This document shows, piece by piece, positions 28,963 to 39,435 of a stretch of DNA of 45,498 nucleotides. Source of the DNA: Planctomycetaceae bacterium (GTDB lineage: Bacteria; Planctomycetota; Phycisphaerae; Phycisphaerales; SM1A02). Numbering within the stretch: position 1 is the first letter of the stretch; each line of letters opens with the position of its first letter. The translations under genes were made by a program, and so were the position numbers. The notes below the pieces were generated by a model, which saw nothing but the letters and a program-made list of their open reading frames with translations, made no database searches and was not told the origin of the DNA. The stretch is taken from assembly GCA_021297815.1 (NCBI GenBank), contig JAJTGK010000019.1, positions 1 through 45,498 of the forward strand, given 5' to 3'.

Positions 28963-30477
<1,515 letters not shown>

Positions 30478-30505: not shown

Positions 30506-30531
30506 ATGCGCGTCGTAGGCGCGTGATTTTT
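30506..30531 (+). terminator. Probable terminator after cysS
   Basis: ATGCGC and GCGCGT pair over six bases (one G-U) around a seven-base loop, followed by GA and five T. It lies 28 bases after the cysS stop and directly before the next promoter. Confidence 0.45.
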
Positions 30532-30532
30532 C

Positions 30533-30561
30533 TTGCTCGGCCCATCGTTTTGTCGTATAGT
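30533..30561 (+). promoter_or_regulatory. Sigma-70-like promoter of the aptamer-led operon
   Basis: TTGCTC (30533-30538) and TATAGT (30556-30561) are separated by exactly 17 bases. Transcription would start near 30568, four bases before the first aptamer. The position relative to the aptamer independently supports both calls. Confidence 0.7.
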
Positions 30562-30571
30562 CGTCCTGTCA

Positions 30572-30664
30572 GCATCAAGAGCAGCGGAGCAATCCGCTCG
30601 GCAACCGAGTCCGATCCGACCACGGTGCCAAAGCGATGCGGCCCAGAAATGGCTGAAAACAGCC
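30572..30664 (+). ncRNA. SAM-riboswitch-like aptamer 1 (SAM-I/SAM-IV clan)
   Basis: Elements appear in the order of the SAM-I/SAM-IV clan. P1 5' strand GCATC (30572-30576); AAGAG; P2 hairpin AGCGGA-GCAA-TCCGCT; the conserved CGGCAACC (30599-30606); P3 formed by ACCG-a-GTC with GAC-ca-CGGT; the conserved GGTGCC (30624-30629) followed by AAA; and P1 3' strand GATGC (30635-30639). No P4 lies inside the core. Instead a hairpin GGCTG-AAAA-CAGCC follows P1, an arrangement closer to SAM-IV or the SAM-I/IV variant than to classical SAM-I. The ligand is inferred from the family, not shown. Confidence 0.72.
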
Positions 30665-30677
30665 AGAAACGGGCACA

Positions 30678-30756
30678 ATCGAGGATCTCCCCTGATCTCG
30701 ATGCTGATGCGGTGTGAGCGGTTGATCCGTTCGCATGTGGCGTCGGCGTTCACACC
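30678..30756 (+). other. Structured spacer between the two aptamers
   Basis: ATCGAGGATC and GATCTCGAT form a nine-base stem with one bulged G and a TCCCCT loop (30678-30702). GGTGTGA (30711-30717) and TCACACC (30750-30756) form a seven-base stem enclosing a smaller hairpin. A 22-codon ORF (MAENSQKRAQ...) crosses the region but has no ribosome-binding site and is not called. Confidence 0.5.
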
Positions 30757-30771
30757 GCGACAACCTGAAGT

Positions 30772-30876
30772 GCATCTCGAGCGACGCGCGCGCCGCGCAA
30801 CACACGGCGCGCGCTCCGGCAACCTGCTGCGAGGCAAGGTGCCACATCGATGCGGGCGGTGCGCGGGAAACGCACC
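30772..30876 (+). ncRNA. SAM-riboswitch-like aptamer 2, tandem with aptamer 1
   Basis: The same order recurs exactly 200 nt downstream: P1 5' GCATC (30772-30776); TCGAG; a ten-base perfect P2 (GCGCGCGCCG/CGGCGCGCGC) around a nine-base loop; CGGCAACC (30817-30824); P3 (ACCTGC with GCAAGGT, one bulge); GGTGCC (30838-30843); P1 3' GATGC (30849-30853). A hairpin GGTGCG-CGGGAAA-CGCACC again follows P1. P1, both conserved loops and the 3' hairpin are kept while P2 and P3 differ in sequence, as expected for two true aptamers rather than a recent duplication. Confidence 0.7.
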
Positions 30877-30906
30877 GTCAACCTCGCGAGGAGCGAGCGC
30901 TGTGCT

Positions 30907-30971
30907 GCTGCCCGTATCGGGCGGCGCGCGTGTCGCCGAGATGCGCTTCCGAGCGCCCGAAAGGGCGGAGG
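30907..30971 (+). promoter_or_regulatory. Putative expression platform: hairpins next to the ribosome-binding site
   Basis: GCTGCCCG-TAT-CGGGCGGC (30907-30925) and CGCCC-GAAA-GGGCG (30954-30967) are stable hairpins. The second abuts and shares a base with the Shine-Dalgarno GGAGG (30967-30971) of the ATG at 30981. No T-run follows, so control of translation start is more likely than termination. Confidence 0.45.
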
Positions 30972-30980
30972 ACGCGCGCC

Positions 30981-32120
30981 ATGTCGAGCCCAGGATCCGA
31001 GCCAACCATCACGCTCAACACTTCGGCGGCGTTTCAGCTCGTCGTCGCGGCACGCGATCGCGCGGTGCGCGATGCCGCGGCGGAAGCGCTCTGGCCTCGC
31101 GCGCATGCCGACGCCAGCGAACTCGATTGCAACGATGCCGACTTCAAGCGCCTTCCGTTCCACGAGCGCGTGCTGGCGCTGCTCGTCGCCTCGTGCATCG
31201 ACGCGCACCCCGACCGCGCGAAGCGCCTGCAGGCCGTGCCGCGCTACCGATTCCTGGCATCGGAGGGCGGAGTTGCCGAGCACCAGGGCGGTCGCGTGTT
31301 CTGCATGCGCGGCGGACGGCGCGGCGCATCGGTGACGATGCCGTCGGGTGAACGCCGCACCTGGAGGAACCACGCAGCCTTCGTGCTGCCGCACCTTGCG
31401 CAGGAAACCGTGCGGCAGCTCGTCGTCCCCGACGACCGCAGAGAACTTCCGTACATCGCGGGCATCGGGTGGATCGTCGACGAGAAGTCGGTCACGCTCG
31501 CGCTCGACAGCTGCATTCGTCGCCGCACATGGCACTGCGACATCTGGCCGACGCTGGTCACCGCCTCGGGCGATGTGCTGCGCAGAGACATGCGCGTGGT
31601 GTCACGGCTGATCGGTGACAAGGCGATCTCCATCGATTCCTCGCTTGCCATGCGGCTTGCCGCAGGCACGCTTTCGGGCGCGGTGCTCTCGTTCTACAAC
31701 CAGCTGCCGATGGGGGGCGGTCGGCGGCCACGGGATGCGACGCTTTCGCTCGAGATCGGCCCTTCGCTTCAGTCGCCGATCATCATGACGCAGCTCAGGG
31801 GAGACCTGCGGCCGCGCTACGAGCTCGACCGCATCGTGCTTGGAAAGCGTGTGGAGGTTCCCACGCTCGCAGGCAGAACGGTTGACCAGCTCGACACGAT
31901 CGCGCGCGAGGTCGGCGTGTGGCACGGGCCGCGCGTGCGAGGTTCGTTCGAGCATCACCCGCTCGGGACCAAGGGTCTGTCGGGGCTGTTGGACGACGCG
32001 GATGACGAATCTGGGAAGGACCCGTTGGCTTGCGAAACGGCGGCCCCTGGACCGCAGCGTTACGGCGACTTCAGCTGGAACGGAGCCCACGATGCCCTCC
32101 TTGAAGCCTTTGGATTTTGA
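30981..32120 (+). CDS. Unknown protein, first gene of the aptamer-led AAA/VWA operon
   Basis: 379 residues from the ATG at 30981, with GGAGG nine bases upstream; the ORF-track start at 30735 lies inside aptamer-region RNA and is rejected. I do not recognise a family. There is no signal peptide or membrane segment, so it is probably cytoplasmic. The N-terminal third is alpha-helical ('SAAFQLVVAARDRAVRDAAA'). The middle is beta-rich with several Trp ('YIAGIGWIVDEKSVTLALDS', 'RRRTWHCDIWPTLV'). The C-terminus is polar and acidic ('LLDDADDESGKDP') and may contact a partner. It is followed after three bases by the second unknown gene and then by AAA and VWA genes, so it is probably a substrate, adaptor or partner of that module. 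Confidence 0.8.
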   Translation: MSSPGSEPTITLNTSAAFQLVVAARDRAVRDAAAEALWPRAHADASELDCNDADFKRLPFHERVLALLVASCIDAHPDRAKRLQAVPRYRFLASEGGVAEHQGGRVFCMRGGRRGASVTMPSGERRTWRNHAAFVLPHLAQETVRQLVVPDDRRELPYIAGIGWIVDEKSVTLALDSCIRRRTWHCDIWPTLVTASGDVLRRDMRVVSRLIGDKAISIDSSLAMRLAAGTLSGAVLSFYNQLPMGGGRRPRDATLSLEIGPSLQSPIIMTQLRGDLRPRYELDRIVLGKRVEVPTLAGRTVDQLDTIAREVGVWHGPRVRGSFEHHPLGTKGLSGLLDDADDESGKDPLACETAAPGPQRYGDFSWNGAHDALLEAFGF

Positions 32121-32123
32121 ACC

Positions 32124-32993
32124 ATGAACTTCCTCATACCACAAGCGATCGACGCCCTCGATCCATGGGACCGAGCCCGTCGGCCCGACACGCTCATCGA
32201 CACGACGCTGCTGCGTCACCCCGCGGCGTTTGGCGAGGCGCTGCGTCCGCTGCTCGAGGGGACGCGCGAACTCGTGCTGCGCGAAGGCGACGAGCTCTCG
32301 CGCGCGTCGCTCGCGGCGCCAGCGATTCACGCGAGCCGCGAGGAGTCGGACATCTTGCGCGCGCGCAGCGTGCTCGAGCGTCGTCCGTCTGCAAGCGAGC
32401 GCGCGGCGCGCGCGCTGGTGAGCGTGTTCGATGGTCGGCTCGAGATCGCGCTCGCGTATCCCGTGCCCGCGATGGGCGAGCGGGCCGCCGCAAAGATCCA
32501 TCCCGTGGCGCTCGGGGACCCGCTCTATGCGGGCCTGCGTCGGAGCAAGGCCAACGCGCACACCGTCGATGCGTGGCACAAGCTCGGGCACGCGCAGCCG
32601 CCGCATTCGGTGTGGGTCGGGGAGATTCCGATCTGGTCGAGCGGATCTCAGCAACTTGCGATCGAGATCGTTCCCAACCCGTGGGGATACAACGAGGCGG
32701 TGCTGATCGCGCATCGCGGCGCAGGCCGCGTGCTTGCGGTCGAACTCGAACTCGGCGACGACTGCACGCTCAAGCCCGCACGCGTGATGCCGTCGGGTTG
32801 GTCGTACCTGCGGCCCGACCGCACGCAGGGCAGCACGGCACCGTGCTTCCCGCACGGCGCACCCGCGGTGTCGCCGCATGTGCGGGTGCCCGACCTCGAC
32901 CTCTTCGCGCTTTGCGCCACGCGCACCTGGGCGGCATCGCCGCGCGACACGCTGTGGCTCTGCGCGCGTCCTGGCCTGCGCGCGCTCGGGTAG
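32124..32993 (+). CDS. Unknown protein, second gene of the aptamer-led AAA/VWA operon
   Basis: 289 residues, starting three bases after the previous stop. No family is recognised. It has no signal peptide or transmembrane helix. An Ala/Arg-rich helical part (about 1-110) precedes a beta-rich part with 'AHTVDAWHKLGHAQPPHSVW', 'IPIWSSGSQQLAIEIVPNPW' and 'MPSGWSYLRPDRTQGS'. Several aromatic and Pro-rich turns suggest a compact beta fold. 'HxxxxAWHKLGH' carries clustered His residues but not a known metal motif. It is separated from the AAA gene by 61 bases carrying a good ribosome-binding site and is read as part of the same operon. Confidence 0.78.
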   Translation: MNFLIPQAIDALDPWDRARRPDTLIDTTLLRHPAAFGEALRPLLEGTRELVLREGDELSRASLAAPAIHASREESDILRARSVLERRPSASERAARALVSVFDGRLEIALAYPVPAMGERAAAKIHPVALGDPLYAGLRRSKANAHTVDAWHKLGHAQPPHSVWVGEIPIWSSGSQQLAIEIVPNPWGYNEAVLIAHRGAGRVLAVELELGDDCTLKPARVMPSGWSYLRPDRTQGSTAPCFPHGAPAVSPHVRVPDLDLFALCATRTWAASPRDTLWLCARPGLRALG

Positions 32994-33054
32994 CGAGGGC
33001 CGCCCGTCACACCAACACACCGCAATCCATCAACAGCACACGAAAGGACACACC

Positions 33055-34038
33055 ATGACTCCCTCTCAGATCCGCTCGAACCTCGACTCGCTCCTGAAGA
33101 CCCGCTGGCCCGCGTTCATCTGGGGTCCGCCCGGCGTGGGCAAGTCGGCGATCGTCGCGCAGCTCGCCGCGGAGCGCGGGCTTGCGCTCCTCGACATTCG
33201 CGCGCCCCTCCTCGACCCGACCGACCTGCGCGGCATTCCCGCCGTCGTCGGCGATCGCGCCGAGTGGTTCGCGCCGTCGTTCCTTCCGCGCGCCGACGCG
33301 CCGCGCGGCATCCTCTTCTTCGACGAGCTCAACGCCGCGCCGCCGATCGTACAGGCGAGCCTCTACCAGCTCGTGCTCGACCGCAGGATCGGCGAGTACA
33401 CGCTGCCGAGCGGGTGGCACATCGTGGCCGCGGGAAACCGCGAGCAGGACCGCTCGGTCGTCTTCCGCATGCCCGATGCGCTTGCGAACCGCTTCGTGCA
33501 TCTCGAGTTCGAGGCGTCGTTCGACGACTGGCGCTCGTGGGCGATCGCGCGCGGGCTGAACCCGATCGTCGTCGCGTTTCTCAGCCTGCGCCGCGAGCTC
33601 CTGCACAAGCCTGGCGGAAACGAGCGCGCGTTCCCCACGCCGCGTTCCTGGGAGATGGCGGCGGACATCCTCGACGCGTTCGACGGCGGCACGCCGCCCG
33701 ACGACGCGATCGTGGGCTGCGTCGGGAAGGGCGCGGCGATCGAGCTGACGACCTTCGCGCAGGAATCGATGACCGCGCACGAGGTCGACGAGGTGCTGCG
33801 CGACCCCGAGTCGGCGCCACTGCCGTCGAAGGCATCGAGCCTCTATGTGCTTGTGAGCAGCCTCGCGCGCTCGGCGGGCGACGAGGCGAGGCGCCAGGTC
33901 TCGGCGAAGCTCCTCTCGCGGCTGCCCGTCGAGTTCGCGACGATTCTCGCGAAGGATCTCCTGCGCCATCAGCCGCTCTTCATCCGCGACGAGCGCTTCC
34001 AGCGGTTCGTGCGTGCGAACAAGGAGGTGTTCGCATGA
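33055..34038 (+). CDS. MoxR-like AAA+ ATPase
   Basis: 327 residues from the ATG at 33055, with AAAGGA upstream. Walker A is 'GPPGVGKS' (24-31) and Walker B 'ILFFDELNAA' (86-95), followed by a sensor-1-like 'HIVAAGNRE' and an arginine-finger region 'DALANRFVHLEFE'. This is the dynein-related/MoxR branch of AAA+, whose members act with VWA-domain partners as chaperones that assemble or mature protein complexes, often by metal insertion. The C-terminal part has a helical lid. Its gene overlaps the VWA gene by ATGA, so translation is coupled and a physical pair is likely. The client is unknown; the two upstream unknown proteins are candidates. Confidence 0.9.
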   Translation: MTPSQIRSNLDSLLKTRWPAFIWGPPGVGKSAIVAQLAAERGLALLDIRAPLLDPTDLRGIPAVVGDRAEWFAPSFLPRADAPRGILFFDELNAAPPIVQASLYQLVLDRRIGEYTLPSGWHIVAAGNREQDRSVVFRMPDALANRFVHLEFEASFDDWRSWAIARGLNPIVVAFLSLRRELLHKPGGNERAFPTPRSWEMAADILDAFDGGTPPDDAIVGCVGKGAAIELTTFAQESMTAHEVDEVLRDPESAPLPSKASSLYVLVSSLARSAGDEARRQVSAKLLSRLPVEFATILAKDLLRHQPLFIRDERFQRFVRANKEVFA

Positions 34039-35324
34039 GCGCCGTGACCACAGGCAGGATCGTCGGGCCATCAAGCGCCGAGGAGACCGAGGCGATCGCG
34101 CGAAGCCGCGTCGAGCTCGCGCGCATGGACCTGCTGCTCGACCATCCGTACTTCGCCACGGCGCTCTTCGCGATGCCGATGCGCGGCACCGACGACGCGT
34201 CGCTCGCGCATGCGGTCGTGACCGACGGCGCGCGCATCGCCTACCACTTCGAGCGGGTCGCGGCGCTCGAACGGCCGAAGGTGCGACTGCTGCTCATGCA
34301 TGCGCTGTCTCACGCGCTGCTTCGGCACAACGAGCGTGGCGAAGGCAGGGACTGGACGCGGTGGACGGCCGCGTGCGACATCGCGGTGACGCAACTGCTG
34401 CAGTCGCTCGGCGCGGTTCCGCCTGCAGAGGACGAGAGGCTCGATGATTTCGCTGGGCTTTCGGCCGAGGCGATCTACGAGAAGCTCGACGAACCTGGTG
34501 GCCCGAGCAATGACGGCGCTTCGCCCGAGGATGGGCTGCTTCCGCCCCCGTCGGGCGGCGGGCACTCGGACGACCCGCAGGCAGACGCCCAGTCGCGCGA
34601 CGCCTTCGATCGCGCGCTGCAGGGTGCCGAGATGCCGACGGCGACGACGCTCGCGGCGATGCGGTGGAACTTCGACGAGGCCGCACAGCATGCGGGTGCC
34701 AAGCTTTCGGGCGATCGTCCAGGGTCAGGAAGCGCCGAGATCGACGCCGCGAACTCGATCACGAAGCCGTGGCAGACGCTTCTCGCATGCTTCATGCGCG
34801 AGCCGCTCGGGCGCGAGTGGTCGCTCGCGCGGCCGAACCGCAAGCACCTGTGGCGCGGCCTCTACCTGCCTGGCCCGATGGACCTCGAGGGCGGCCGCTT
34901 CGTGGTGGCCATCGACACCTCGGGCTCGATGACCAACATGGACCTCGCGAAGATCCTCGAGGAGATCGACGCGATCCGCACGACGCTCGACTGCGAGCTC
35001 ACGGTGCTGCAGTTCGACGCCGCGGTGCACGCGGTCGCGGAGTTCTCGCGATGGTCCGACACCGACGAGCGGGTCGGCTCGACGCGCATGATGCGCGTGT
35101 TCGGACGCGGCGGCACCGACCTGCGGCTTCCGTTCCAGTGGACCGACGCCGAGTGCCGCGCAGGCCGACGCGTGTCGGCGCTCATCGTGTGCACCGATGG
35201 ATTCGGGCCGTTGCCCACGGAGCCGCCGCCCGATCTGCCCGTGCTCTTCCTACTCACCAAGACGCACGCCGCACCCGCGTTCGGCACGCATGTCGTGATG
35301 GAGCAGGCGCCAGCGCGGCGATGA
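34035..35324 (+). CDS. DUF2201-type protein: degenerate metallopeptidase-like domain plus VWA domain
   Basis: 429 residues; ATG at 34035 overlaps the AAA stop by four bases and AAGGAGG lies just upstream. The N-terminal domain matches the metallopeptidase-like part of the family ('LDHPYFATALF', 'WTAACDIAVTQLLQSLG', 'FAGLSAEAIYEKL'). The zinc motif normally written HExxH is here HALSH (89-93), with Ala for the catalytic Glu, so peptidase activity is doubtful. A Gly/Pro/Asp-rich linker (about 155-190) leads to a VWA-like domain with MIDAS residues 'DTSGSM' (D294), 'GRGGTD' and 'CTDGFG'. AAA-VWA pairs of this type are widespread and mostly uncharacterised. Confidence 0.88.
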   Translation: MSAVTTGRIVGPSSAEETEAIARSRVELARMDLLLDHPYFATALFAMPMRGTDDASLAHAVVTDGARIAYHFERVAALERPKVRLLLMHALSHALLRHNERGEGRDWTRWTAACDIAVTQLLQSLGAVPPAEDERLDDFAGLSAEAIYEKLDEPGGPSNDGASPEDGLLPPPSGGGHSDDPQADAQSRDAFDRALQGAEMPTATTLAAMRWNFDEAAQHAGAKLSGDRPGSGSAEIDAANSITKPWQTLLACFMREPLGREWSLARPNRKHLWRGLYLPGPMDLEGGRFVVAIDTSGSMTNMDLAKILEEIDAIRTTLDCELTVLQFDAAVHAVAEFSRWSDTDERVGSTRMMRVFGRGGTDLRLPFQWTDAECRAGRRVSALIVCTDGFGPLPTEPPPDLPVLFLLTKTHAAPAFGTHVVMEQAPARR

Positions 35325-35345: not shown

Positions 35346-35771
35346 TCATCGAAACACCACAGGCAGTCCCGTGGTGCAATCGACGAGCATCGCGCGACCA
35401 TCGAAGCGCAGGAGGCTGGCGCAGTAGCCGTTCTCTTCGAGCGCGCCGCGCATCTCCGCATCGCTCAGCATGTCGAGCTCGATCTCGGAGGATGCTTCGA
35501 CGCGCGCGAAGTCGATGGTGATCGGCGCGGGCCCGACGGTGGAGAAATCAAGAGCGATCTCGGCGGTGCGGGTCGAAGGCGCGCGCTCCTGCGACTGCCG
35601 TGAGAGCAGCGTCGTGAGCGCCGCCGCCGCCGCGACGCACGCCGCGAACGCGGCGATGCGCGCACGGCGCACGCGTCGCACATGCCCGATCTCGAGCGCC
35701 TCGCCCGCGGCTTCCAGGATGGCCGCGCGTCGCGCGCGCACCGAATCGCGTGCATGCACTTCGCTGCTCAT
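35346..35771 (-). CDS. Small single-pass membrane protein, putative anti-sigma factor
   Basis: 141 residues. Start ATG 35771 overlaps the sigma gene's stop (ATGA), so the two are translationally coupled. A basic N-terminal ~40 residues is followed by one transmembrane segment ('IAAFAACVAAAAALTTLLS') and an exported ~80-residue C-terminal part. Gene order (immediately after an ECF sigma factor) and topology fit an anti-sigma factor, but the cytoplasmic part lacks a visible zinc-binding HxxxCxxC. The call is therefore by position and topology only. Confidence 0.65.
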   Translation of the reverse strand: MSSEVHARDSVRARRAAILEAAGEALEIGHVRRVRRARIAAFAACVAAAAALTTLLSRQSQERAPSTRTAEIALDFSTVGPAPITIDFARVEASSEIELDMLSDAEMRGALEENGYCASLLRFDGRAMLVDCTTGLPVVFR

Positions 35772-36319
35772 CCCGCACCTCCTTCGCGCACACGCGCCAC
35801 AAGTCGGCGCAGCGCGCTTTCCACCGCCCTTGGCGTGGCACCGATCGCCCGCGCGATCGAGGGCACGCGCATCCCCTCGGCGTGGCGAAGCCGCAGCAGC
35901 GCACGCTCGTCGTCATCAAGCCGCGCCAGCACTCCATCGAGCGTGTCCGCGTCGTGTGAGGTTGTGCCCGGATCGCCGCCGTCCTGCGCGCGCGGCGCAC
36001 CAATCTCGCGTCGTTGTCGACGCGCCTCCGCAACGATGCTGTTGCGCGCCACATTCAACGCCGCCAGCCGCATCCAGGCGAGCAGCGCGGCATAGGTGTC
36101 GACGACGGGCGGGTTGGCGGCAAGCCTCATGAACATCTCCTGCAGGCAATCGAGTGCGAACGACTCGTCGCGGCGCGTCGTCTTCCGAACCGACTGCACG
36201 ACTTCCTCGGCGCAGCGGTCGTAGAGCTCCGCCAGCGCCTCGCGCGAACCAGAGCGGACCGCTCGCGTCATGCGCGCGGCCCATTCGTCGTCGGATGCGC
36301 GGTGGCCATCGGCGGTCAC
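35768..36319 (-). CDS. ECF-type RNA polymerase sigma factor
   Basis: 183 residues from a GTG at 36319 that overlaps the stop of the upstream gene (GTGA). An internal ATG at 36271 is the alternative. Region 2 is seen in 'EALAELYDRCAEEVVQSVRK' and 'DCLQEMFMRLAAN'. Region 4 HTH is seen in 'LDDDERALLRLRHAEGMRVP' and 'IARAIGATPRAVESALRRLV'. It would direct polymerase to a small regulon, probably released by a signal sensed through the membrane protein downstream or the secreted STN-like protein upstream. Confidence 0.9.
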   Translation of the reverse strand: MTADGHRASDDEWAARMTRAVRSGSREALAELYDRCAEEVVQSVRKTTRRDESFALDCLQEMFMRLAANPPVVDTYAALLAWMRLAALNVARNSIVAEARRQRREIGAPRAQDGGDPGTTSHDADTLDGVLARLDDDERALLRLRHAEGMRVPSIARAIGATPRAVESALRRLVARVREGGAG

Positions 36320-37779
36320 TTCTTGTTGCGGAAGGCGGTGACGATCTCGTCGATCAGATCGATCGAACCGCTCGGACCCTTGGCGAAGAGGATGCGTGAC
36401 GGCTCGTGGTAGCGCGCCTTTACGCGGTCGGCGGAACCGTCGGCCTGGAGCGCGAAGTCGATCGCCTCGATGAGGCTCTTGATGCCCTTCGCGTCCGCGC
36501 CCGGCCAGTCGCTGAGGTCGAAGATGCGCTGCCGCACCGACGCGGACGGAGAATCGGCGGCGGAAACGGGCTTTCGTGCGATCATGATGACCGGCGAGGT
36601 TGCGATGATGGGCTCGTTCTGGCCTCGCCTCACCTCGCCCGGCCGCCTCACCTCGGCTGGCTTGCCGCCGTTGGCCGCGTCGGGCGCGATGACCGTCACG
36701 GCGATCTGCGCGTCTTCGTCGAGCGGCAGCGACTGGAGCGAGAGGAAGAACACCTCGGGCGCGACGCGCTTGACCGCGAGCGCGGGGATCGTCAGGCCTC
36801 CGACCGTCGCATCGGCGAGGACGACATTGCACTCGACGAGCGACTTGACCGAAGTCACGAGTTCCTGCAGCGTGCCGCCCTTCCAGTCGATGTTGACGGT
36901 CAGGAGCTCCTCCGTTCGCCCCTGCTCCCGCTGGCGTTCGGATAGGACGCGCTCCTCGGCGTCGATGAGTTCCTCCATGCGCGCGATGTACGCAGGGAGT
37001 GCGTCGCGCAGGGCGCGCTTGGCCTCCTCGACTTCCCAGCGCCAACCGCTCACGCGGACCATGCTGAGCGGTCGCTCGAGCTCGAGGTCGACGCTCGAGA
37101 GACTGCCGTGAAGGTCGGCCTCGACCGAGTCGATGTAGAACTCCACGGCGTTGTTCGAGCGCCCGTTCTGGCGGAGGAAGTTCTCGAAGAGCGACTGCGC
37201 GCGGCTCGCGACCATGAGGAACGCCTGGTCGACCGGGATCCGCTCGGTGGCGGGCGAGCATTCGTCGGCAAACTGCCGCATCTGATCGTTGAGCACGCTC
37301 AAGTCGCGCCGAAGCTCCGCGCGCTCTTCGGCAGTCAGATCAGGCGAGCTCAGCTGGTTGTTCACCGAGACGATGCCCGCGCGAAGGCCCACGAGCCGCT
37401 TGTAGCGCGTGGATTCGGCATCCGCATTCTGAGGGGCCGGCGGCGCATCGGAAGGCGAGTCCGATCGCAGCCGGGCGACCAGGTGATCGAACGCACGCTT
37501 GGCTTCGTTCCGGGTCTCGGCACTCAAGTCCTGCCGCTCCCGCGTGGCCGCGATCGCCTTCAGCGCTTGCCGAAGCTCTTCGGTCGACATCCCGTCGATG
37601 GCCTCGATCGTGGGGATGTCGGCCGCGGAAGCCGTTTGGATCGGATGGGGCGAGGGGTGCCCGCTCGCCGCCGCCGAGAGCATGCAGGCGAGCGCGAGGA
37701 TCGGAAGCGTGAGGATTTGGTGCGGAGCGGCGGACCGGGATTTGCTCATGTCGTTGCTCATGGTTGTGCTCATGTTCAA
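36316..37779 (-). CDS. Secreted coiled-coil protein with STN-like domain, coupled to an ECF sigma factor
   Basis: 487 residues. The start may be 37779 or the in-frame ATG at 37761; both lead into a signal peptide ('ILTLPILALACMLSAAASG'). From about 60 to 290 it is charged and helical, likely coiled coil. About 295-370 ('TVNIDWKGGTLQELVTSVKS', 'GGLTIPALAVKRVAPEVFFL') resembles the short secretin/TonB N-terminal (STN) fold, which in receptors passes signals to anti-sigma proteins. The C-terminal ~70 residues resemble a second secretin-N-type unit. No secretin barrel follows. It is the first gene of a three-gene operon with four-base overlaps, so it may be the envelope sensor for the sigma factor. 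Confidence 0.72.
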   Translation of the reverse strand: MNMSTTMSNDMSKSRSAAPHQILTLPILALACMLSAAASGHPSPHPIQTASAADIPTIEAIDGMSTEELRQALKAIAATRERQDLSAETRNEAKRAFDHLVARLRSDSPSDAPPAPQNADAESTRYKRLVGLRAGIVSVNNQLSSPDLTAEERAELRRDLSVLNDQMRQFADECSPATERIPVDQAFLMVASRAQSLFENFLRQNGRSNNAVEFYIDSVEADLHGSLSSVDLELERPLSMVRVSGWRWEVEEAKRALRDALPAYIARMEELIDAEERVLSERQREQGRTEELLTVNIDWKGGTLQELVTSVKSLVECNVVLADATVGGLTIPALAVKRVAPEVFFLSLQSLPLDEDAQIAVTVIAPDAANGGKPAEVRRPGEVRRGQNEPIIATSPVIMIARKPVSAADSPSASVRQRIFDLSDWPGADAKGIKSLIEAIDFALQADGSADRVKARYHEPSRILFAKGPSGSIDLIDEIVTAFRNKK

Positions 37780-37851: not shown

Positions 37852-39435
37852 TCACACCACGGGCGCGTCGACGCGCATGAACGGCGCGCACTTCGAGATC
37901 TTCGTGCCCGCCGAAAGTCCGCCCCAGCGGGCCGCGGCGACCATGCCCCCACTCGGGCTCGTGTTCGAGCCGTACGCCGCCAGCACCTCGGCGCACTTCG
38001 CGGGCATGATCGGCGTGAGCAGCACCGCGGCCACGCGCACGCCCTCGGCGCACGCGGCCAGGATCTCGGCCACGCGCGGCAGGTTCGCGGGGTCCTTCGC
38101 GAGCTTGAACGGCGCTGTCTCGTTGATGAGGAGGTCGACCGCGCGCACGATCGAAAGCGCCGCGTCGGCGGCCTCGGCGAGTTCGAACGCCTCGTAGTGG
38201 CGTCGCGTCTTCTCGGCGGTCGCCTCGACGAACGCGCTCCAGCTCGGCGCGCCCGCAGCGCCCGAGATCGGCATCGACGCCGTCTCGGCCGCGGGCATCG
38301 TGCCCGCGAAGTACTTCTCGATCATCGAGCTCGTGCGGCTCGCGCAGTTCGCGAAGGTGTTCACAAGCTGCGCGGTGTAGATCTCGTGGAAGTGCTTGTC
38401 GCTGAAGTCGGCGTCCTGCGTGCCGAGCGGGCCCTGCGTCGTCATGTACCAGCGCCACGCGTCGACGCCGTACTTCGCGAAGAACCCGTCGATCGTCTCG
38501 AGGTCGACGAAGTTCCCGAGCGACTTCGACATCTTCTGCCCGTTGCGGATCCAGAACGAGTGCGCGTACACGCACTTCGGCAGCGGAAGGTCGAGCGCCA
38601 TCAGCATCGCGGGCCAGATGACCGCGTGGAACCAGAGGATCTCCTTGCCGATCACATGGAACTCGGGCGGCCAGTACTTCGCGCGGTCCTTCGCGAGCGC
38701 GCCCGCAGGCTCGGCGAGCCCGAGCGCGGTCGCGTAGTTGAAGAGCGCGTCGATCCACACATAGATGACATGCTCGGGCGCGTTGGGCATGGGAATGCCC
38801 CAGGTGAAGTTCGTGCGCGTGACGGGCACATCCTGCAGCCCGTCGCGCAGGCGGCCGAGCACCTCGTTGAAGCGGCCCGCAGGGCGCACGAACTCGGGGT
38901 TCGCCTTGAAGAACGCCTCGAGCTTCGACTGGTACGCGCTGAGGCGGAAGTAGTAGTTCTTCTCGGTCGCGCGCACGAGCGGACGCCCGCTGATCGGGCT
39001 CTTGTAGTCCATCTCCTTCGCGCGCGACTCGGTGATGTACTCCTCCTGCCCCTCGTCGTACCAGCCGTTGAACTCGCCGAGGTAGATGTCGCCCGACGCG
39101 AGCAGCCGCGACACGAACGCCTGTACCTGCGACTCGTGGCGCGGCTCGGTGGTGCGGATGAAGTCGTCGTTCGAGAGGTTGAACGGCCCGAGCAGCTTGC
39201 GGAACTCGGCGGAGTTCTCGTCGGCGAGCGCCTGCGGGGTCATGCCGCGGTCCTTCGCGCTCTTCTCGACCTTCTGCCCGTGCTCGTCGGTGCCCGTGAG
39301 GAAGAACACATCGCGCCCGTCGAGCCGCATCGCCCGCGCCCAGACATCGCAGAGCGTCGTCGTGTACGCGCTCCCGATGTGCGGGCGGTCGTTCACGTAG
39401 TAGATGGGCGTCGTGATGTAGGCGGGGCTGGACAT
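37852..39435 (-). CDS. metG: Methionyl-tRNA synthetase
   Basis: 527 residues from the ATG at 39435; the longer ORF to 40080 is antisense to the next gene. The enzyme charges tRNA-Met. Seen: 'YYVNDRPHIGSAYTTTLCDV' (HIGH motif as HIGS), 'FFLTGTDEHGQKVEKSA', 'GWYDEGQEEYI' in the connective domain, 'TNFTWGIPMP', and 'IRNGQKMSKSLGN' (KMSKS). The anticodon-binding helical domain follows from ~390. The connective part resembles the short form lacking four-Cys zinc knuckles. There is no C-terminal tRNA-binding domain, which is common. The gene contains the only ACGT tetranucleotide I found in the window (39395-39398). Confidence 0.97.
   Translation of the reverse strand: MSSPAYITTPIYYVNDRPHIGSAYTTTLCDVWARAMRLDGRDVFFLTGTDEHGQKVEKSAKDRGMTPQALADENSAEFRKLLGPFNLSNDDFIRTTEPRHESQVQAFVSRLLASGDIYLGEFNGWYDEGQEEYITESRAKEMDYKSPISGRPLVRATEKNYYFRLSAYQSKLEAFFKANPEFVRPAGRFNEVLGRLRDGLQDVPVTRTNFTWGIPMPNAPEHVIYVWIDALFNYATALGLAEPAGALAKDRAKYWPPEFHVIGKEILWFHAVIWPAMLMALDLPLPKCVYAHSFWIRNGQKMSKSLGNFVDLETIDGFFAKYGVDAWRWYMTTQGPLGTQDADFSDKHFHEIYTAQLVNTFANCASRTSSMIEKYFAGTMPAAETASMPISGAAGAPSWSAFVEATAEKTRRHYEAFELAEAADAALSIVRAVDLLINETAPFKLAKDPANLPRVAEILAACAEGVRVAAVLLTPIMPAKCAEVLAAYGSNTSPSGGMVAAARWGGLSAGTKISKCAPFMRVDAPVV

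Follow-up and report, generated by a model that had tools for sequence, protein, structure and literature searches.

Tandem SAM-I/IV riboswitches before a planctomycete AAA+/VWA operon suggest induction by SAM shortage

Riboswitches for S-adenosylmethionine (SAM) are usually taken as labels of sulfur and methionine metabolism. In a 45,498-nucleotide contig of a freshwater planctomycete (JAJTGK010000019.1, assembly GCA_021297815.1; the whole stretch is called the window below), two aptamers of the SAM-I/IV type precede an operon of another kind, which encodes two proteins of no known family, a MoxR-like AAA+ ATPase and a protein with a von Willebrand factor A (VWA) domain. The locus thus raises the question of why such genes should stand behind SAM aptamers. 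The answer favoured here, which on balance we hold to be probable from comparison of the sequences, is that the operon is induced by SAM shortage and otherwise held off by the tandem riboswitches. The host genome (3.03 Mb) is 88% complete, and all genomes compared are drafts; genes in the window were called by codon-based gene finding, and calls outside it were likewise made in this analysis.

Two aptamers and a four-gene operon

Aptamer 1 (30567–30669, forward strand, as are all features of the operon and its leader) matches the SAM-I/IV family, Rfam RF01725, the SAM-I-IV variant described by Weinberg et al. (2010, PMC2864571), over the whole model with 52.0 bits (cut-off 41.1; E 9e-6 across the window), and is the sole Rfam match in the 45 kb at the gathering threshold. 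Aptamer 2 (30773–30890) is sub-threshold, with 30.8 bits for the SAM-IV model (cut-off 38; E 0.0023 when 0.9 kb was searched) and 30.4 bits for the SAM-I-IV model, and retains the conserved core. Two matches in the same arrangement were found in five genomes of the same genus (G004, G006, G010, G012 and G001), and the homologous second aptamer of G004 scores 41.6 bits. Because this identical arrangement recurs, aptamer 2 is not regarded as a chance match, and the plural aptamers described in the initial annotation can be retained. More generally, sub-threshold aptamers were counted when found at the same place before the same gene, so that weak E-values are backed by position plus score. The two aptamers are the only SAM-I/IV matches genome-wide, and a search of the host genome for S-box SAM-I riboswitches gave no match. 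Elsewhere in the order, the same aptamer class precedes ordinary SAM and methionine genes, namely a Cys/Met pyridoxal phosphate (PLP) enzyme, a CMAS methyltransferase and metK, and the core elements GCAUC-AGAG, GGCAACCGA, GGUGCC and GAUGCGG are common to the aptamers before these genes. Hence the ligand of the class is most simply taken to be SAM.

Downstream lie four tightly spaced genes on the same strand, in agreement with the initial annotation: the open reading frames ORF1 (30981–32120, 379 aa) and ORF2 (32124–32993, 289 aa), the MoxR-like ATPase (33055–34038, 327 aa; AAA_5 8.9e-8) and the VWA protein (34035–35324, 429 aa; DUF2201_N 1.4e-27 plus DUF2201 5.6e-17), the last two reading frames sharing four bases. 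The start of ORF1 is most likely at 30981, backed by a Shine-Dalgarno sequence, GGAGG, at 30967–30971; a start at 30735 was rejected, as aptamer 2 would then fall within the coding region. Neither ORF1 nor ORF2 has a match in Pfam, NCBIfam or PADLOC, and a comparison of the two as mutual relatives was negative. Homologues of ORF1 were not found beyond the genus, nor those of ORF2 outside the genus or in phages and viral sequences. Structure prediction, which had been suggested for both, succeeded in part: the AlphaFold model of ORF2 is usable (pLDDT 78, pTM 0.80) and gave no significant match in a fold search against PDB and viral structures, and that of ORF1 is poor (pLDDT 49).

The ATPase carries Walker A (GPPGVGKS) and Walker B (ILFFDE) motifs. 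In the VWA protein an N-terminal, zincin-like DUF2201_N domain is followed by a VWA domain with an intact metal ion-dependent adhesion site (DTSGS); the DUF2201 family profile gives 97.4 bits (23.2 bits required), and VWA_CoxE is a weak secondary match. The zincin motif reads HALSHALLRH, and each of the four full-length homologues likewise has HALxH; the catalytic Glu of HExxH is thus lost, and the domain probably binds rather than cuts. A PADLOC search of the operon proteins returned no convincing match (best IetA, E 0.015), and the bpMoxR match of the ATPase reaches an E of 0.048 only.

The operon probably forms a transcription unit independent of the upstream gene cysS (28963–30477), since cysS ends in its own intrinsic terminator (30507–30525, an 8-pair stem followed by ATTTTTCTTG), which divides it from the operon, and a near-invariant TATA(G/C)T stands just before aptamer 1. 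This hexamer is the −10 element of a putative promoter at 30533–30561 (TTGCTC at 30533, a 17 nt spacer and TATAGT at 30556–30561), immediately 5′ of the aptamer, which was not flagged by a consensus promoter scan; across the genus leader alignment the −10 element is almost invariant and the −35 element weak. The absence of an adjacent methionine gene, stated in the initial annotation, was borne out. The neighbour metG (methionyl-tRNA ligase, about 37852–39435) lies on the opposite strand, metK of the host genome is located on a separate contig with no aptamer before it, and no methionine gene adjoins the operon or leader in the window or in any compared locus of the genus (12 genomes).

A predicted translational switch

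The leader can form a long alternative helix. The 5′ strand of aptamer 2 (30764–30790) can base-pair with a strand termed anti2 (30926–30949), which lies shortly before the ribosome site; the conserved helix comprises 19–22 bp. Its duplex energy is −44.3 kcal/mol in the window (z −6.1) and ranges from −40 to −46 kcal/mol in the ten genomes with an alignable tandem leader (z −4.5 to −6.9 relative to dinucleotide shuffles). Cognate strands out-pair strands swapped among genomes (permutation p 0.0024), and the covariation score and percentage paired were reached by 0 of 500 shuffles, slid controls also being lower; both comparisons can be inflated by the kinship of the genomes. A pair count on the alignment revealed two-sided changes in six pairs. 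At columns 320/568 the window has U-A, and the other intact leaders have C-G.

A conserved, covarying helix thus joins the 5′ strand of aptamer 2 to a strand directly before the ribosome site, as expected of a translational OFF switch, in which ligand binding and the alternative helix are mutually exclusive. In the absence of SAM the long anti2 helix would form and leave the ribosome site open. With SAM bound, aptamer 2 would hold its own 5′ strand, and the freed anti2 strand would fold over the ribosome site and stop translation. In the predicted OFF fold of the window, GGAGG lies within a hairpin closed by GCGCGCGU/ACGCGCGC. When the downstream piece was folded with and without the anti2 strand, the unpaired probability of the ribosome site in G004, G010, G006, G002 and G011 was 0.26, 0.24, 0.05, 0 and 0, respectively, in the OFF fold, and 0.81, 0.82, 0.46, 0.41 and 0.35 in the alternative fold. 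We consider it very likely that regulation of the operon responds to SAM, and, with slightly less assurance, that the direction is OFF in the presence of SAM.

Aptamer 1 has a comparable complement. Its 5′ strand (about 30568–30587) can pair with anti1 (30690–30709; −22.6 kcal/mol in the window), and this complementarity is seen in nine of ten genomes (z −1.9 to −4.4). A linker hairpin, GCGGTGTGA/TCACACCGC, read by eye from the leader alignment, follows at 30709–30758. A terminator scan found no terminator-like site between the aptamers, and aptamer 1 was discarded as a terminator switch for that reason. With no obvious second output, aptamer 1 probably sharpens the response, the two aptamers acting as a pseudo-cooperative tandem.

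As in the tandem SAM riboswitches covered by a review (PMC9481103), same-ligand aptamers are here repeated before one operon, and a steeper response is expected; unlike in those, no intrinsic terminator follows the first aptamer. The tandem types given in that review are SAM-I, SAM-II, SAM-II/SAM-V, SAM-II/SAM-I-IV and SAM-I-IV/SAM-II. A SAM-I-IV/SAM-I-IV pair is not among them, and the present leader is accordingly an arrangement absent from the types given in this source. Relative to other members of the SAM-I/IV family, the leader is set apart by the tandem copies, each with a downstream complement of its own 5′ strand, and by a target that is an AAA/VWA operon rather than a methionine gene.

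The leader and its genes in related genomes

The cysS–metG neighbourhood was compared among 16 genomes of the genus, cysS being found in 14 (not in G003 and G008). All ten operons of this kind with a readable leader have aptamers, nine of them clearly in tandem, and the tandem leader could be aligned through both aptamers in ten genomes. The genes behind it are less constant. Four genomes (G000, G004, G012 and G010) have the order ORF1, ORF2, MoxR and VWA given in the initial annotation; this order does not extend to five others, in which the same leader precedes an ORF2 relative of approximately 30% identity and an unrelated third protein, with neither MoxR nor VWA (complete or almost so in G001, G005 and G014; the third protein is more distant in G002 and G011). 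Grouped with the first four are G009, where MoxR and VWA accompany an ORF2-like gene and aptamer 1 alone can be recognised, and G006, whose contig ends after ORF1. Since the leader is paired with an ORF2 relative in these five genomes lacking MoxR/VWA, and every ORF2 relative found sits behind these aptamers, the constant partner of the aptamers is ORF2, not the MoxR/VWA pair.

In G007 and G015 the cysS–metG locus is intact with neither aptamer nor operon, and in G013 a decayed locus retains aptamer 1 and a remnant of the protein specific to the operons without MoxR/VWA. The place that the operon has in relatives is filled in G007 by a REP-type Y1 transposase-like gene together with a duplicate of the 3′ end of cysS (L117:6588-7650). 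Two findings that would have spoken against SAM control did not emerge: no relative with a readable leader has the operon without aptamers, and nowhere does a methionine gene follow the genus-conserved leader. Taken together, the conserved leader, the covariation in its expression platform and its loss along with the operon argue well for SAM control as first proposed.

The aptamers were also traced through the order and class, and a second association of SAM-I/IV aptamers with MoxR/VWA genes was found. In G083, of another family, an aptamer precedes MoxR, a small protein, a VWA protein with DUF2201_N and a divergent SAM synthetase. G273 belongs to yet another family; here a MoxR of this type stands directly behind two aptamers in tandem (37.9 and 40.7 bits), with no VWA or MetK after it (L152:8063-9971, reverse strand). 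A profile of this MoxR has matches in 6 of 397 class genomes, and the order MoxR, small variable protein, VWA and MetK-like protein recurs where the contig continues (G020, G057, G373 and, twice, G427; G290 is cut). The window's own genus also has this operon, in G015. Loci of this operon type, which is found across several families of the class and is conserved behind SAM-I/IV aptamers in a number of Phycisphaerae genomes, are L061:6353-11520, L154:7722-12947, L162:6346-11218, L163:6949-11707, L165:6212-11254, L166:1-4546 and L167:933-5642.

A SAM aptamer was found before this MoxR in eight of nine loci, the exception being G290 (0.5–0.7 kb upstream examined). Covariance models recovered the aptamers of G083, G273 (two), G427b, G373, G015 and G057, none of them reaching the curated cut-off and those of G373, G015 and G057 being weak; in G427a and G020 the aptamer core was found by pattern. 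Of the 17 matches that the looser core pattern gave in other strand sequence (0.91 Mb), every one lies at an aptamer position. The MetK-like proteins retain the GHPDK, DQ, GGPxGDNG and GGGAxxGKD motifs (read with the G083 metK row as reference and the G000 metK and G373 rows left out). The HExxH motif of the VWA protein is intact in these operons, whereas it is lost in that of the window. The two operon types share MoxR plus DUF2201_N/VWA under SAM-I/IV aptamers, tandem before the MoxR of G273. The MetK-like type is set apart by its divergent SAM synthetase, by the absence of ORF1 and ORF2 and by a distant MoxR and VWA, which give no more than short, weak BLAST matches with those of the window; the window operon has no MetK-like gene. 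In an otherwise poorly resolved tree, the separation of the two MoxR groups is complete. It appears, then, that MoxR/VWA genes came under SAM control on at least two occasions, a count of origins that relies on MoxR sequences which are distant and on a tree whose branches are long. This recurrence is the strongest reason to regard the link as functional. A literature search for papers linking MoxR with SAM synthetase gave no relevant paper.

Several observations were made around these operons. On an IMG/VR contig (L177), the MoxR and VWA of the MetK-like operon type lie beside apparent phage structural genes; neither the aptamer core nor a MetK-like gene was found on that piece. Contig C25 of G083 (L051, L061) carries several SAM-I/IV aptamers, metK, the MoxR/VWA/MetK-like operon and a NERD-helicase with PADLOC hits, as well as apparent DNA methyltransferase and Vsr genes identified by eye, and may be a mobile or defence island.

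Possible function and competing explanations

A function of the window operon in SAM metabolism can be put forward tentatively, as an idea that may nearly as well prove wrong as right. In such a scheme MoxR would be the AAA+ motor and the VWA protein, its zincin catalytic Glu lost, the substrate adaptor; together with ORF1 and ORF2 they would form a remodelling module needed when SAM is scarce. Its target would probably be an enzyme that makes or uses SAM, for which only the parallel operon provides an explicit candidate. That operon, with MoxR, a small protein, a VWA protein with intact HExxH and a divergent SAM synthetase behind SAM aptamers, is the nearest functional parallel; it lends outside support to the earlier suggestion that the window genes may mature a SAM-linked enzyme. 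MoxR/VWA pairs of the CoxD–CoxE type activate metalloenzymes. The window operon resembles these in its AAA+ and VWA gene pair and the weak VWA_CoxE match, and differs in that DUF2201 outranks CoxE and no cox or other target metalloenzyme was recognised nearby.

By extension, and with similar reserve, MoxR/VWA machines of this kind could constitute an undescribed class of planctomycete SAM-homeostasis devices, in which SAM scarcity alone would trigger production of the motor, which would then activate or remodel enzymes that make or use SAM. The basis for such a class is the presence of at least two separate MoxR/VWA lineages behind SAM-I/IV aptamers, with tandem cases in both, one with its own divergent SAM synthetase. 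SAM riboswitches here label AAA+/VWA operons in separate gene lineages, one encoding a SAM synthetase relative, and offer a testable lead, hitherto missing, on what DUF2201-type MoxR/VWA pairs do. Two interpretations are suggested: a new layer of SAM homeostasis, or a system in which the loss of SAM serves as the alarm.

A number of results weigh against a SAM-shortage-induced AAA+/VWA operon. Aptamer 2 falls below the family cut-off. In the window itself, accessibility of the ribosome site barely differs between the folds (0.46 vs 0.51), and in G012, G005 and G014 its closing is small or ambiguous. Covariation of anti1 was not significant by pair count on the alignment, and a relay in which the freed aptamer 1 linker pairs with aptamer 2 was rejected, the energies not improving on those of shuffles (p 0.5). 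Half of the tandem leaders drive ORF2 and an unrelated protein, so the AAA/VWA pair is not obligatory. Other MoxR/VWA pairs of the genus, about 52% and 30% identical, stand beside a ligA-like gene, and an aptamer search at such a pair detected none. Finally, the window MoxR is only distantly related to that of the MetK-like operons (short, weak BLAST matches).

The principal competing explanation, which we regard as unlikely but deserving of serious attention, is a conflict module, anti-phage or cell-suicide, for which loss of SAM is the alarm, e.g. through a phage SAM-degrading enzyme or arrested metabolism. MoxR/VWA would then be a threshold switch, and ORF1 and ORF2, or the alternative third protein, sensors or effectors. 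Within the genus, ORF1 and ORF2 each keep 47% identity or less, as compared with about 55% for VWA, 69–76% for MoxR and 83–91% for the flanking cysS. Such fast divergence would suit a conflict module, as would the swapping of modules behind the same leader, the empty, decayed or replaced loci of sister genomes, and the apparent DNA methyltransferase and Vsr endonuclease genes and the NERD-helicase of the G083 contig. In addition, ternary MoxR-vWA systems (with VMAP, iSTAND, FtsH or beta-propeller components) are candidate conflict systems, planctomycetes included (Kaur et al. 2020, PMC7159879); the window operon shares with them a MoxR AAA+ ATPase combined with VWA, fast-evolving partners and the planctomycete setting. 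However, its SAM riboswitch and the zincin-like DUF2201_N domain of its VWA protein distinguish it from those systems, and no Pfam match to the VMAP, iSTAND, FtsH-like or beta-propeller third components was found in ORF1 or ORF2. The lack of a convincing PADLOC match for any operon protein and of a viral homologue of ORF2 likewise speaks against a conflict role, and the plausible SAM synthetase of the parallel operon fits metabolism better. A literature search combining SAM riboswitches with phage defence returned no paper.

It is considerably less likely that the ligand has changed in one or both aptamers, for instance to S-adenosylhomocysteine or a polyamine, and that the operon is not under SAM control. 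Spermidine-sensing close variants of SAM aptamers have been reported (PMC10853860), and the sub-threshold score of aptamer 2 would be compatible with such a change; against this, aptamer 1 is a full family member at 52 bits, and the conserved core is the one common to the aptamers before the Cys/Met PLP enzyme, metK and CMAS genes.

A relic leader that once served a methionine gene, with the present genes inserted behind it and no regulatory meaning, is very improbable: the same aptamer class does stand before ordinary methionine genes within the order, and G013 keeps aptamer 1 with a mere gene remnant, but in both operon types the anti2 helix covaries and runs straight on to the ribosome site of what is now the first gene, G007 and G015 lack the aptamers as well as the operon, and none of 12 genomes has a methionine gene behind the leader. 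The same count disposes of a methionine gene lost only in the window genome.

In the remainder of the locus, between the operon and metG (35346–37761, reverse strand), the window encodes a conserved extracytoplasmic function (ECF) sigma factor, a putative anti-sigma-like small protein and a large unknown protein. An ARAGORN call of tRNA-Val (cac) at 35556–35647 on the same strand lies within a coding region, has no Rfam support at the gathering threshold and is probably a false positive. Elsewhere, a small unnamed family with an N-terminal RPDxYW-like motif was seen near SAM-I/IV aptamers in three distant genomes (L051:7099-7716, L048:1929-2471 and L146:9064-9636). In G356 (L147) and G379 (L149), a small VWA protein of a different type lies some 2 kb or less downstream of a SAM-I/IV aptamer, separated from it by unknown proteins, and the first protein behind the G379 aptamer is related to one behind an aptamer of G050.

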